Part shown: positions 15,696-29,831 of the stretch, in pieces | Numbering within the stretch: position 1 is the stretch's first letter | Layout of the letters: every line of letters starts with the position of its first letter | Origin: Lentisphaerota bacterium | GTDB taxonomy: Bacteria > Verrucomicrobiota > Lentisphaeria > Victivallales > Victivallaceae | Direction of reading: 5' to 3' | Length of the DNA: 64,000 nt | Assembly (NCBI GenBank): GCA_015061605.1 | Contig: SUWH01000001.1 | Span: 1 to 64,000 of the forward strand | Notes under the pieces: generated by a model | What the model saw: only the letters and a program-made list of their open reading frames with translations | Told to the model about the DNA's origin: nothing | The model's database searches: none | Translations under genes and position numbers: made by a program

Positions 15696-15880
15696 GATTT
15701 AAATTTACGCTGTTTCAAAACATTCGTTTTGACAGCGTTTTTTTATTTGTCTTGCGCTTCGCGCTCCCCCATCTTGCGATGGGTGTGGATTCCTTATGGG
15801 GGGTTGCCTTGCGCTTCCCGACCAAAGGTCTGCGATGCTCATGCCCGTCGGCACTGCGTGCCGACGGCGCAACATCGGAA
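15696..15880 (+). repeat. Dispersed inverted copy of the tRNA-Tyr tail repeat
   Basis: It carries the same terminator hairpin (CGCTGTTTCAAAAC then GTTTTGACAGCG and T7) and the same GC-rich block, including GGTTGCCTTGCGCTTC, as the tandem units at 27581-27986, in opposite orientation. No tRNA lies next to it. It abuts the 3' end of dsbD. Confidence 0.7.
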
Positions 15881-26475: not shown

Positions 26476-26787
26476 AAAACAGTTGCAAAAAGAAAAAATC
26501 ATGACGGGACAAATACAATTTGCCAAAGTCAGTATTTGCTTTTTGCGGAGGAGTACCTCACACAAAAAGTGGTACCAGGGACGGGACTCGACGGAGGGCG
26601 CAGCCCGACGAGCCTGAACGCAGTGAAGGCAACCCGAATTAAGTGAGCAGTCCCATTTTTTTGCGGTGCAAAAAAATATTTGCAAAAAGAAAAAATCCTG
26701 AATATCAAAAAAATTTGATTAATTCAGGATTTGCTTTTTGCGGGGACTGCCTGACGGCAAAAAAGTGGTACCAGGGACGGGACTCGA
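26476..26787 (-). repeat. tRNA-Leu tail repeat: 196-bp unit, one complete and one partial
   Basis: The last 22 nt of tRNA-Leu (TCGAGTCCCG to CCA on the minus strand) are repeated exactly at 26570-26591, 196 bp from the genuine copy at 26766-26787. Both copies are followed, in transcription order, by similar sequence (CTTTTTG..., CCGCAAAAAGCAAAT, GATTTTTTCTTTTTGCAA). The first unit also holds a terminator and a GC-rich block; the second is cut by the ISL3 left end at 26475. Confidence 0.8.
26688..26732 (-). terminator. Terminator of tRNA-Leu
   Basis: AATCCTGAAT and ATTCAGGATT form a perfect 10-bp stem about 40 bp after the tRNA on the minus strand, followed by TTTTTTCTTTTT. Confidence 0.75.
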
Positions 26788-26851
26788 ACCCGCACACTGT
26801 ATAAGTGACTGATTTTAAGTCAGTTGCGTCTGCCTATTCCGCCACCCTGGC
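26766..26851 (-). tRNA. tRNA-Leu (anticodon TAA)
   Basis: A class II tRNA with a long variable arm (CACTTATACAGTG). The acceptor GCCAGGG pairs with CCCTGGT, anticodon stem ACTGA/TCAGT encloses CTTAAAA (anticodon TAA), the T-arm is GCGGGTTCGAGTCCCGT and CCA is encoded. A promoter with TTGTAA, a 17-bp spacer and TATATT lies upstream on the minus strand. Confidence 0.95.
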
Positions 26852-26903
26852 ATTTTTTGTTTCACCATTTTATTAATATACCACATTCAAGGTGATTTTA
26901 CAA

Positions 26904-27196
26904 CTGGTATTGGGTGTTTTTCTGAATCGGAAACCGCAGAAAACCGTAACCAGTAAAAATTATCTTTTTTACACTGCAGTCCGGCAGATCAAGGATTTTT
27001 TTTAATAATGCCTTGAAAATTTCCGGATGGCGGCTGTTCATCACTTCAGAAAGCGTGGATTTTGCCACGCTTCTATGCCGAGGTGATAAAGGCGTTTGTG
27101 GTTGGCAAGCAGAGTGTTTTCAATTTCACGCAAAGAATCCTTACCGGAAATTTGAGCAAACAGCAAGGTCAGAAATTGTTTCCATGCGGTGAAATT
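26904..27196 (-). pseudogene. IS4-family (DUF4372-type) transposase N-terminal fragment, frameshifted
   Basis: On the minus strand from 27196 the frame reads NFTAWKQFLTLLFAQISG, then KDSLREIENTLLANHKRLYH, the N-terminal helix signature of IS4-type transposases. After LGIEA it must shift frame to continue VAKSTLSEVMNSRHPEIF. No DDE catalytic region follows; the fragment runs into the tRNA-Leu promoter. Confidence 0.6.
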
Positions 27197-27250
27197 GGGG
27201 GATAGTATTGTCTTTCAAAGCGTTTTCCACACTGTTGCACACATTCAGTT
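27196..27250 (-). repeat. 51-bp segment shared with the integrase remnant at 13690-13740
   Basis: The minus strand encodes LNVCNSVENALKDNTIP exactly as at 13690-13740; the DNA differs at one base plus one extra C. Flanking sequences on both sides are unrelated, so this short piece was joined here by recombination. Confidence 0.7.
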
Positions 27251-27518
27251 CGCCATTATCGGAGACAAACTGCGTAAAGTTGGCAAAAGCGTTGCCGCCA
27301 GTCAGAATATCGTGTATGGCAAGTTTTTTCGCCCTTACTATCGGGTTTATTTGGATAATAAGCTGATTTGGGGAACCAGAAAAACATTTTTCGGAGGACA
27401 CTTTGAATTGCATTACCAAAGCAATGCACCGTTGAAAATCAACCGCATTTCCATTTACGACACAGGATTTGTTCAACCGGGAGAAAAACGTAAATCCCGC
27501 TTACAACTGCCACAATAA
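27246..27518 (+). pseudogene. C-terminal fragment of an unknown protein
   Basis: An open + strand frame reads GDKLRKVGKSVAASQNIVYG, then FFRPYYRVYLDNKLIWGT and ends KRKSRLQLPQ. Its aromatic- and glycine-rich composition looks like real protein rather than chance, but it lacks its own start: the frame opens inside the 51-bp shared segment. I do not recognise it. Confidence 0.35.
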
Positions 27519-27580
27519 AAAAATCTGACGGTATCTGCTGTATCTACTGTACTTATCCAACTGCGACAGTAGAAAACGTT

Positions 27581-27986
27581 GTCAAAACGAATGTTTTGAA
27601 CCAGCGTAAATTTATATGTTTGGAGGTGGATTCGACGGCGGCACGCAGTGCCGACGAGCGTGAGCATCGCAGACCTCCGGTCGAGAAGCGCAAGGCAACC
27701 ACAAACAAGGAATCCACACCCATCGTAAGATGGGTAGCGCGCAGCGCAAGACAAATAAAAAACGCTGTCAAAACGAATGTTTTGAAACAGCGCAAATTTA
27801 TATGTTTGGAGGTGGATTCGACGGCGGCACGCAGTGCCGACGAGCATGAGCATCGCAGACCTCCGGTCGAGAAGCGCAAGGCAACCACAAACAAGGAATC
27901 CACGCCCATCGAAAGATGGGTAGCGCGCAGCGCAAGACAAATAAAAAACGCTGTCAAAACGAATGTTTTGAACCAGCGTGAATTTA
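27581..27986 (-). repeat. tRNA-Tyr tail repeat: 186-bp tandem units
   Basis: GTCAAAACGAATG recurs at 27581, 27767 and 27953, exactly 186 bp apart. Each unit contains, in transcription order on the minus strand: a 14-nt match to the tRNA-Tyr T-arm/acceptor (TCGAATCCACCTCC, at 27622-27635 and 27808-27821), a terminator hairpin with T6 and a GC-rich block ending at the next tRNA piece. A degenerate third tail lies near 27993-28007, just before the real tRNA. The full units differ by only a few bases. Confidence 0.85.
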
Positions 27987-28023
27987 TTTGTCGGAAAGTG
28001 GATTCCGGACATATCTTTTTAAA

Positions 28024-28108
28024 TGGTGGTGGGAGGTGGATTCGAACCACCGAAAGCGATGCTAGCAGATTTACAGTCTGCCCCCTTTAGCCACTCGGGA
28101 ATCCCACC
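28024..28108 (-). tRNA. tRNA-Tyr (anticodon GTA)
   Basis: A class II tRNA. The acceptor GGTGGGA pairs with TCCCACC, anticodon stem GCAGA/TCTGC encloses CTGTAAA (anticodon GTA), the variable arm and T-arm (GGTGGTTCGAATCCACC) are normal and CCA is encoded. A TTGTAA/17 bp/TATATT promoter precedes it on the minus strand. Confidence 0.95.
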
Positions 28109-28212
28109 GGTATCTTTGTTTAATATACTTCCGGAACTACGATTTTACAACCGGCAGACAATATTTTTCAGTATAATTTTCTGTTAATGCCGCAGAATCC
28201 GTAAAATTATAA

Positions 28213-28240
28213 AACAAAAAAGCACCGGTCGAACCGGTGC
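28213..28240 (-). terminator. Terminator after the 34-aa gene
   Basis: GCACCGGT/ACCGGTGC with a 3-nt loop, followed on the minus strand by TTTTTTG. It ends the uxs-containing transcript. Confidence 0.85.
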
Positions 28241-28253
28241 ATATATATTTTTT

Positions 28254-28358
28254 TCAGGCGACAAAGGTGTAGTAAACCATTACTCCACCGACGACCATCA
28301 GGGCGCAGAAGCCGTAGATGATAATGTCTTCCCAGTGTTTTTTCAGAAAATTGCTCAT
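28254..28358 (-). CDS. 34-residue single-pass membrane protein
   Basis: An ATG at 28356-28358 opens a frame of 34 codons. It starts MSNFLKKHWEDIIIYG, continues with a hydrophobic helix (FCALMVVGGVMVYYTF) and stops just before a strong terminator. A GGAGAAAAG ribosome site sits at proper distance. A basic N-terminus followed by one helix suggests an inner membrane peptide with its N-terminus inside. It is the last gene of the pfkA-uxs unit. No function is known to me; size resembles small regulators of membrane complexes. Confidence 0.65.
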   Translation of the reverse strand: MSNFLKKHWEDIIIYGFCALMVVGGVMVYYTFVA

Positions 28359-28422
28359 TTTCTTTTCTCCGTTGTTTGATCAAATTACACTGCATGCGGG
28401 ATGTTTCCCGTACCGTAAAAGG

Positions 28423-28857
28423 TCAAACAACAGCCGGTCCGGCACGCGGCGGCAGCGAATGCTGAAGAAAAGTATGGAATTCAAGTATCGGAGCAACAGC
28501 TCTCTGTTTGAAAAATGCAACCGGAATATGAAGTGATACCGGACGGGCAATATCAGTATTACTGTCCCGTAACAGACGACAGTTGATCCGCTCTCCCGAA
28601 CGCCGGGTGACCAGTGCCGGGGGCAAAGTTCCCGGCAGCAGGCCGCGCAATATGCCGTTGGAATCAGAATTTTCCTCCTGAACCGGGGCGAGCGGCGGCA
28701 GACCGGGATTATCGGCGAACTGCCATGAAATTGTTGAAGATATCGCCGGTTCCGGAGTTGAAACCGTATGCAAAAAAAACATCGCCCCTATCATTGCCAA
28801 TGGCAGTGACAGGAACCGGGGCAAAAATTTGATATGTGTTTGCAACAGTTTCATCAT
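28423..28857 (-). CDS. Hypothetical protein with N-terminal signal/anchor
   Basis: 144 residues beginning MMKLLQTHIKFLPRFLS, with a hydrophobic segment (LPLAMIGAMFFLHTV) at about 18-32 and then a polar, proline-rich region without recognisable motifs. It lies 14 bp after the uxs gene and upstream of the 34-aa gene, in the same orientation. A second ATG follows directly, so the start is uncertain by one codon. Export or membrane anchoring is inferred from the hydrophobic segment. Confidence 0.5.
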   Translation of the reverse strand: MMKLLQTHIKFLPRFLSLPLAMIGAMFFLHTVSTPEPAISSTISWQFADNPGLPPLAPVQEENSDSNGILRGLLPGTLPPALVTRRSGERINCRLLRDSNTDIARPVSLHIPVAFFKQRAVAPILEFHTFLQHSLPPRAGPAVV

Positions 28858-28871
28858 GCGGTCAATTACAA

Positions 28872-29831
28872 TTATTTTGCGCAGAAATCCGGAGCAGTCT
28901 TCAATAATTCCTCAAAATAGCCTATGGTGTGGGTCAATCCTTCACGCAAAGTGATTTCCGGTTCCCAGTCAAGCAACGCTTTTGCCTTGGAAATATCCGG
29001 TTTCCGCTGTTTGGGGTCATCGGACGGCAATGGTTCAAATATGAGCTTGGAATTGGAATTGGTCAATTCAATGACCGCTTCGGCAAGCTGTTTGATGGTA
29101 AATTCGCCGGGGTTGCCCAGGTTCACCGGGCCGCAGACATCGTCCGGAGTATCCATCATTTTCATCAAACCTGAAACCAGATCGGAAACGAAACAGAAAC
29201 TTCTGGTTTGTGATCCGTCACCGTAAATGGTGATATTTTCATTGCGTAACGCCTGCAAAATGAAGTTGCTTACCACGCGTCCGTCATTGGGGTGCATCCG
29301 GGGACCGTAGGTGTTGAAAATGCGGACGATCTTGGTGCGCAGATTGCACTGCATACGGTAGCAGTTGAAAAGGGTTTCGGCACAGCGTTTTCCCTCATCA
29401 TAGCAGGAGCGGATACCGATCGGGTTGACGTGTCCCCAGTATTCTTCGACCTGCGGATGGACCAATGGATCACCGTATACTTCGCTGGTGGAACTCTGCA
29501 GAATTTTTGCGTTGAGCCGCTTGGCAAGTCCAAGCATATTGATAGCGCCGTGGACACAGGTTTTGACCGTCTGCACCGGATCGCGCTGATAATGTATCGG
29601 GCTTGCCGGGCAGGCGAGGTTGTAAATTTCATCGCATTCGATGTACAACGGGAATGTCACATCGTGCCGGATGAATTCAAATTTCGGATTATCCAGAAAC
29701 TGATAAATATTGCGTTTGGCACCGGTAAAGAGATTGTCAACGCAAATGACTTCATCGCCCCGGTTCAAAAGGGCTTCGCACAAATGGGAACCGAGAAAAC
29801 CGCTGCCTCCGGTAACTAAAATACGTTTCAT
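28872..29831 (-). CDS. uxs: UDP-glucuronate decarboxylase (UDP-xylose synthase type)
   Basis: A short-chain dehydrogenase-fold enzyme converting UDP-glucuronate to UDP-xylose. 319 residues with the NAD loop [10 protein letters not shown] at 8-17, [10 protein letters not shown], the catalytic Ser/Tyr/Lys set (SSTSEVYG, and YDEGKRCAE with Tyr and Lys), and [20 protein letters not shown], which distinguishes UXS from dTDP-glucose dehydratases. GGAGAG precedes the ATG. Product sugars may enter surface polysaccharide. Confidence 0.9.

Follow-up and report, generated by a model that had tools for sequence, protein, structure and literature searches.

The window analysed here, i.e., the whole stretch of positions 1-64,000 (64,000 nucleotides) on the forward strand of contig SUWH01000001.1 from a Lentisphaerota bacterium (GCA_015061605.1), carries on its minus strand a tRNA-Tyr(gta) gene with an encoded CCA end (28024..28108; ARAGORN, Rfam tRNA score 54.9 bits), behind which stand two whole 186-bp units, 96% identical to each other, and one partial unit. 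Tandem repeats with pieces of the tRNA-Tyr tail 3' of the gene had been described in a first-pass annotation and are confirmed by the ARAGORN gene and exact tail matches; the 186-bp spacing claimed there is exact, with starts at 27570, 27756, and 27942 (TRF period 186, 2.3 copies). Read in tRNA orientation, unit 1 (27808..28023) is the tRNA-proximal module and comprises an outer stem, inner hairpins, a copy of its own T-arm with an opened T-loop, and a 14-nt tail copy. In the fold, the 5' strand of the outer stem P1, GGAATCCAC, lies at 27998..28006 and the 3' strand, GTGGATTCC, at 27895..27903; seven nucleotides of the latter (GTGGATT) also complement the tail of the unit's own tRNA. Then follow a copy of the own T-stem 5' strand, GTGG plus TT (27883..27888), a GC-rich hairpin insert that opens the T-loop between T55 and C56 (27822..27882), and the tail copy TCGAATCCACCTCC (27808..27821, exact pattern match). 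Unit 2 (27622..27807) is without the 5' strand of P1, has its T-stem copy at 27697..27702 by the 186-bp register and an exactly matching tail copy at 27622..27635, and the array ends in a partial third hairpin segment at 27570..27621, all on the minus strand. Long open frames run across these units.

The exact 14-nt tail occurs at three sites in the whole window, all on the minus strand, i.e., in the gene (28045), at 27821, and at 27635, so that there are two tail copies and not three. The annotation had counted three tail-bearing units, of which both whole ones do carry the tail, whereas the third in plus-strand order (27942-28005) is tail-less: it consists of no more than the hairpin part nearest the tRNA, and the tail that comes after it belongs to the gene itself. 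With about 0.0005 matches expected in the window under uniform base composition, a chance origin of the tail copies is ruled out. The tRNA-Tyr gene stands alone in its own genome vs clustered in relatives, where 16 of the 17 tRNA-Tyr loci collected (L017-L035) form a Leu(cag)-Gly(tcc)-Tyr(gta) cluster and one a Gly-Tyr pair.

Two further elements of this kind, additional to the first observation, lie in the window. The tRNA-Leu(taa) gene (26766..26851, minus strand; ARAGORN) is its second module-bearing tRNA, with a module at 26592..26765 that is matched by model R1 at 26580-26638 (68.1 bits), and a full tail copy through CCA at 26570..26591 (19 of 20 letters). On the plus strand, an orphan Tyr-type module in two pieces, 93% and 88% identical to the unit, occupies 15697..15869; it has no tail copy, and no tRNA was found in its 3.1-kb locus. 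An IS-like end, TCTGTCACAAAACGTCGATGAACC, precedes this orphan by about 100 nt. Directly behind tRNA-Ala(ggc) (784-860), a 203-bp array of 3.1 tandem copies without a tail copy extends over 122-753 on the minus strand, and each of its units has, by eye, an apparent start of a GIY-YIG nuclease frame and a nested palindrome.

Distribution across tRNA genes and genomes

Parts of the Tyr unit are present at further places in the genome from which the window comes, and of six such loci scanned with ARAGORN, five hold a tRNA gene (Ser, Glu, Glu, Asp, and Arg). Own-tail copies follow 10 of the 40 tRNA genes recovered from this genome (Rfam lists 41), including Leu(taa); the relaxed rule passes 12 of 40, from which Asn, a true tandem pair, and a lone 11-nt Gly match were removed. 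Such copies lie downstream of Arg(ccg), Asp, Cys, Glu(ttc), His, Leu(taa), Ser(tga), Thr(cgt), and Tyr, and per 20 letters they match 19 in six tRNAs (the mismatch being the first T), 20 in His, 17 in Tyr, and 16 in Ser, while Glu(ctc) has an 11-nt tail copy and passes the relaxed rule by that match only. Upstream flanks, taken as a control, reach at most 14 of 20 letters except at the true tandem tRNA-Asn pair. The Asp and Ser copies are interrupted by other palindromes, and the Tyr copy is truncated to 14 nt. At an Asp, a Ser, and a Gly locus (L061, L073, and L138, the last in G010), small palindromes with the pattern CTTGTC..CGCCATAGC or CGGCGTAGC..GCGACGGCGGA sit within tail copies and the module hairpin as nested palindromic elements. 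The same genome has a second repeat class in the 3' flanks of His, Phe, Pro(cgg), Ser(cga), and Val(cac), which opens with an inverted repeat resembling CCATTTTTTTGC..AAAAAAATGG and AACGAAGxCG, and a third (GCGCGCCTTGC..GCGCTCG) in the flanks of Cys, Thr, Leu(tag), Lys, and, less clearly, Asn.

Three relatives (G006, G010, and G011) have at least nine tail-copied tRNAs each, of 42-46, their full Rfam tRNA counts being 46, 42, and 42. Under the relaxed rule 10 of 37, 10 of 35, and 9 of 35 tRNAs pass, and nine remain in G006 and in G010 once a true tandem pair (Ala and Asn, respectively) is set aside; three, one, and three of these tRNAs were included only via a module-model match, without which the counts are 6 of 34, 8 of 34, and 6 of 32. 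A search with the Tyr array brought a few of the relatives' Tyr loci into the sets. A stricter rule gives 10 of 40 for the window's own genome and 5 of 34, 5 of 34, and 4 of 32 for the relatives, true tandem pairs being counted in the first three. By the same rule as for the relatives, none of the 45 tRNAs of G156 (same family, other genus, 97% complete) has a tail copy, two that pass being true tandem tRNAs that were set aside. Across the genus and its kin, tail-bearing modules accompany 22 tRNA kinds (23 listed minus Ala, a true tandem tRNA pair). The searches of this genome and the genus rule out a single-locus oddity, and with 22 tRNA kinds here and Tyr, Lys, and Arg in E. coli, a tRNA-Tyr-specific feature is ruled out as well.

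Model R1, built from 16 short-form modules, matches 30 of 34 genus genomes at E<=0.01, including all 14 with at least 90% completeness and at most 5% contamination; the genus genomes are drafts of 30-400 contigs and 54-98% completeness (88.7% for the window's own). In a class-wide search of 197 genomes with stricter filters (E<=1e-4), 31 genomes were matched, of which 26 belong to the same genus, four to two other genera of the family, and one elsewhere in the order. An exact-pattern scan of named genomes hit 27 stretches; Lentisphaerae/Lentisphaeria MAGs account for 16, several of these from ruminants, and the rest are scattered. It is from these relatives that the placement of the genome in the Lentisphaeria was derived here. 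The literature searched yielded no paper on such repeats in Lentisphaerae. We examined 75 loci, i.e., 30 fetched with the model searches, five more (L220-L224), and 40 hand-picked among the R1 matches listed, and a tRNA gene lies upstream on the same strand in 66 of them, mostly 100-300 nt away. No upstream tRNA was found in the other nine: at L223, L247, L260, and L267 less than 200 nt of upstream sequence is available, and L217, L222, L239, L245, and L257, with at least 300 nt, may be orphans or remnants. Unit number per locus ranges from one to seven, and the spacing is mostly about 80-230 bp.

The tRNA-Tyr genes of five relatives (G013, G016, G027, G029, and G031), each with 1,500 nt of flank, have no tail copy by the rule used, while other relatives carry units there; the absence of the repeat from other strains, which the first-pass annotation had named as evidence against its reading, is thus partly seen, and repeats at a given tRNA evidently come and go. 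An assembly artefact of short-read genomes could be suspected from the draft state of the assemblies and from a 10-N gap in the Glu array of the window's own genome. This is most improbable: R1 matches recur in 30 of 34 separate assemblies with differing unit lengths, and a similar plan exists in the finished chromosome of E. coli K-12.

Module architecture and covariation

In tRNA orientation, a full module leads from CCA and a T-run through P1, which encloses a long helix P2 and a hairpin P3, to the T-stem copy. Its 3' part runs from the copy of the own T-stem 5' strand through a GCC..GGC hairpin, a second hairpin, and TCGA to the own tail, which in complete copies extends through CCA; this 3' domain is a copy of the T-arm in which hairpins open the T-loop between T55 and C56. 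Where the T-loop of the tRNA is TTCAA (Met, Arg acg), TCAA is found in the module. The insert of type A reads TT^[GCC..GT]CGAA, and the tail copies begin in the T-loop, at T55; type B is inserted in the opposite orientation, TTCG[AC..GGC]^AA, with the loop opened after CGA, and occurs at Tyr or Asn in nine relatives. The T-stem copy agrees with the own tRNA at 3.81 of 5 positions vs 2.97 (sd 0.14) when tRNAs are permuted, none of 10,000 permutations being as high (27 distinct cases), a signal that comes mainly from positions 50 and 51. Within the 44 nt before the T-arm copy, runs complementary to the tail average 5.66 for the own tail vs 4.64 (sd 0.11) for permuted tails (0 of 500; 71 modules) and 3.86 in shuffled segments.

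The first-pass annotation had also assigned a terminator to each unit. In the predicted fold, the Tyr-unit hairpin with its T-run is indeed terminator-like, but a simple terminator scan flags none in the Tyr units. In favour of stacked terminators that insulate tRNA genes, with tail copies as passengers, many modules of one type have an A-tract/hairpin/T-tract helix; however, in the Gln modules of G004 and G008 and in several Thr modules, judged by eye, the helix is retained but a clear T-run is missing. With these modules and the unflagged Tyr units, a terminator stack does not appear to be general, and we consider it an improbable explanation of the arrays.

Covariation was assessed in an alignment of 32 modules of one type (A3), hand-chosen from 71, with the structure drawn from the same alignment. 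Of its cells, 91.9% are paired in the stated structure, and double-change cells number 149 vs 48.1 after shuffling and at most 30 after sliding. Compensatory changes occur in all seven helices tested, with doubly changed pairs amounting to 9 of 10 in inner P2, 3 of 8 in outer P2, 4 of 8 in P1, and only 1 of 6 in P3. RNAalifold recovers 31 pairs from the same 32 modules, 16 of them with double changes; from one MAFFT alignment of all 71 modules it recovers four pairs only, because the module types do not align. An alternative pairing of the P1 3' strand with the tail copy fits 92.7% of cells (2 of 6 pairs doubly changed) vs 95.6% for P1, so that this strand may switch partner. The letters of P1 do not always follow the own tRNA, as in Glu with C59 and in Leu of G003 and G011. 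In minimum-energy folds of 71 single units, the tail copy is unpaired in 32; its partner is the T-stem copy in 14, the anti-tail strand in five, and something else in 20. The 3' domains of the window's own Tyr and Leu modules fold without pairing between tail and T-stem copy.

These patterns bear on whether the modules work as RNA. Against an RNA role, the predicted folds of single units mostly do without pairing between tail and T-stem copy, many tail copies are truncated or interrupted, which would be expected of unselected sequence, and presence at a given tRNA changes between species; the hairpins could instead be maintained at the DNA level. The arrays may be non-functional satellite DNA, in which flanks duplicate by slippage or unequal crossing-over, a mobile palindrome has a preference for the copies' T-loop, TT^CGAA, itself nearly palindromic, and the match to the own tail reflects descent in place. 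Inserts in both orientations (types A and B), palindromes nested within inserts and tail copies, decaying tail copies, and unit numbers of one to seven agree with such an origin. It accounts poorly for the compensatory changes in all seven helices of the 32 modules (P3 being represented by 1 of 6 pairs only), for one architecture across many tRNA kinds and most genus genomes, and for the similar plan in E. coli, for which an RNA is reported (PMC4986893). Satellite DNA remains the main rival because of tail-copy decay, insertions within copies, and turnover between species, and we judge it unlikely, though to be taken seriously.

Comparison with RtT and other known elements

The parallel drawn in the first-pass annotation with the E. 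coli tyrT/rtT locus is supported and extends beyond unit and tail length. RtT RNA is reported from E. coli tRNA operons and Pasteurellaceae with an unclear role; in E. coli it is said to be released from the transcripts of tRNA operons, and in Actinobacillus RtT candidates were seen on Northern blots (PMC4986893). The repeats of RtT (RF00391; rttR, tyrT/tyrV operon) follow tRNA-Tyr in tandem as they do here, with a spacing of 178 bp vs 186, and carry the own tail through CCA. They also share with the modules a copy of the own T-arm opened by hairpins (AAGGTTCGA...AATCC), an anti-tail strand (GGGGAAGGAT, a 10-nt complement of the own tail), and a hairpin-rich body common to several tRNA kinds. 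The modules lie 3' of a tRNA on the same strand (66 of the 75 loci), their units end in the own tail, and they have a tail-complementary upstream strand, which is a criterion of our own for RtT. Unlike in RtT, type A has its insert reversed in orientation and possesses an additional outer stem with two hairpins, and the kinds of tRNA concerned number 22 vs three among the 53 E. coli genes sampled.

That sample covers 13 regions of E. coli K-12 rather than the whole chromosome, and 12 of its 53 tRNA genes (Lys, Arg, Tyr) have own-tail copies, each matching 15 of 15 letters under a rule of at least 13 of 15 within 700 nt and outside tRNA genes; the sole tail copy of argY lies past argZ. Lys and Arg elements have a common body with GATAACGTTGC..GCAACGGCCCG, to which the Tyr hairpins are similar, and, unlike the modules here, no T-stem copy in the 75 nt examined. 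In L319, L321, and L323, one hairpin body is found in the lysT, lysW, lysY, lysZ, argQ, argZ, and argV elements and a second in those of lysQ and lysV. The longest anti-tail runs are 8-10 nt in Tyr, 8 in argV, 5 in argQ, 4 in argZ, and 5 in Lys; when one element each from Lys, Arg, and Tyr is folded, the minimum-energy structure is closed by the tail. The Rfam RtT model calls the Tyr and Lys elements RtT and leaves the Arg ones below the cut-off; the tpr gene (a protamine-like ORF) is present in the E. coli annotation. The same model scores 133-138 bits on E. coli tyrT as a positive control and gives no match at E<=5 in window positions 26500-29000 or at E<=0.5 in 10 loci of relatives, and R1 in turn has no match in the E. 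coli tyrT region. With each model missing the other's elements in this way, the likeness to RtT may reflect either convergence or common descent. The tail-repeat plan was already known in enterics and their kin, and its extent in this genus appears to be without an earlier report that we could find.

Other known elements resemble the modules in single traits. The 3'ETS-leuZ of E. coli, which acts as a sponge RNA, is likewise an annotated RNA directly 3' of a tRNA gene, yet it is a single 67-nt spacer, and leuZ is not among the genes listed when the E. coli sample is scanned for tail copies. REP/BIME repeats, mobilised by RAYT, are dispersed intergenic palindromic hairpins, as are found here; the modules differ from them in their location 3' of tRNA genes, their own-tail matching, and the absence of a detected Y1 transposase from the window's own genome.

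Turnover of bodies and proposed origin

Near-identical bodies occur behind different tRNAs: Ser(gct) and Ser(gga) of G030 (100%), Ser(cga) and Ser(gga) of G031 (96%), Glu(ttc) and Glu(ctc) of G011 (95%), and Arg and Glu(ctc) of the window's own genome (89%). In the G030 Ser pair, the identity starts at the T-arm, and the preceding tRNA bodies differ. The Glu(ctc) array of G011 has its own tail proximally and a distal copy with Glu(ttc) letters, a pattern that fits conversion of the flank rather than T-loop insertion, as far as one case can indicate. The terminator that adjoins tRNA-Tyr in G024 and G027 stands after the last tail in G007.

Integrative elements are much larger than the units here. 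Their remnants result from the integration of a mobile element, vs a tandem spacing of mostly about 80-230 bp here. Partial duplication of the tRNA gene is a trait in common, such elements leaving tRNA gene fragments (PMC9897764). Minimal cassettes could nevertheless recombine site-specifically at the T-loop and supply a new tail, in the manner of phages and islands at tRNA genes. Tail copies that start in the T-loop (T55 in type A) and a last Tyr tail, beside the downstream terminator, that is the degenerate one in G006, G007, and G019 would suit this mechanism. The spacing, however, is too short for a recombinase gene, and the sole informative transfer, the G011 Glu(ctc) array, has its own tail proximal and the Glu(ttc) copy distal, opposite to the prediction; this one case goes against a T-loop integrase cassette, and we hold integration to be improbable. 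Y1 transposases number zero in the window's own genome (88.7% complete) and exceed the cut-off in 10 of 34 genus genomes; reverse transcriptases occur in eight of 34, including a 29.9-bit piece in the window's own, and were not found in the module-rich G010 and G011. Neither shows a presence/absence link with the modules across the 34 genomes, which is weak evidence against either as a driver because the genomes are incomplete.

Modules match the tail and T-stem of their own tRNA, covary within one type, accompany tRNA genes, share bodies, and vary in their arrays. On comparative grounds, we lean slightly towards the reading that the tRNA-Tyr array is one case of an RtT-like family of tRNA 3'-flank RNAs that are transcribed by read-through, processed, and spread by recombination. 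Each unit would most likely be transcribed from the tRNA promoter by read-through; tRNA-maturation enzymes would cut at or near the tail copies, and the small RNAs released might mimic the acceptor/T side of tRNA. Unequal recombination would raise the unit number of a locus, and bodies would travel between tRNA genes by gene conversion or ectopic recombination. More speculatively, and with considerable doubt on our part, RtT and the modules may form one widespread class of tRNA-tied RNAs, in which an own-tail helix closes a hairpin body that ends in CCA. Such minihelix mimics might act on tRNA 3' processing, on CCA repair, or on charging, either as decoys or as timers, and would track the sequence of their tRNA while bodies move from one tRNA gene to another.

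In this gut bacterium, distant from E. coli, an RtT-like plan is found at more tRNA kinds. Tail-bearing modules behind about a quarter of the tRNA genes, in 22 kinds and with strong covariation and own-tail matching, constitute a natural experiment on function and spread, and make it a testable question whether tRNA-tail repeats are RNA mimics or mere satellite DNA, and whether RtT in enterics is a lone curiosity or belongs to a class that spans phyla. As a minor observation, the tRNA-Thr bodies of G016 and G020 (L210 and L212) are 99% identical, and homology downstream is lost shortly past the tail copy, which places the breakpoint right behind the array.
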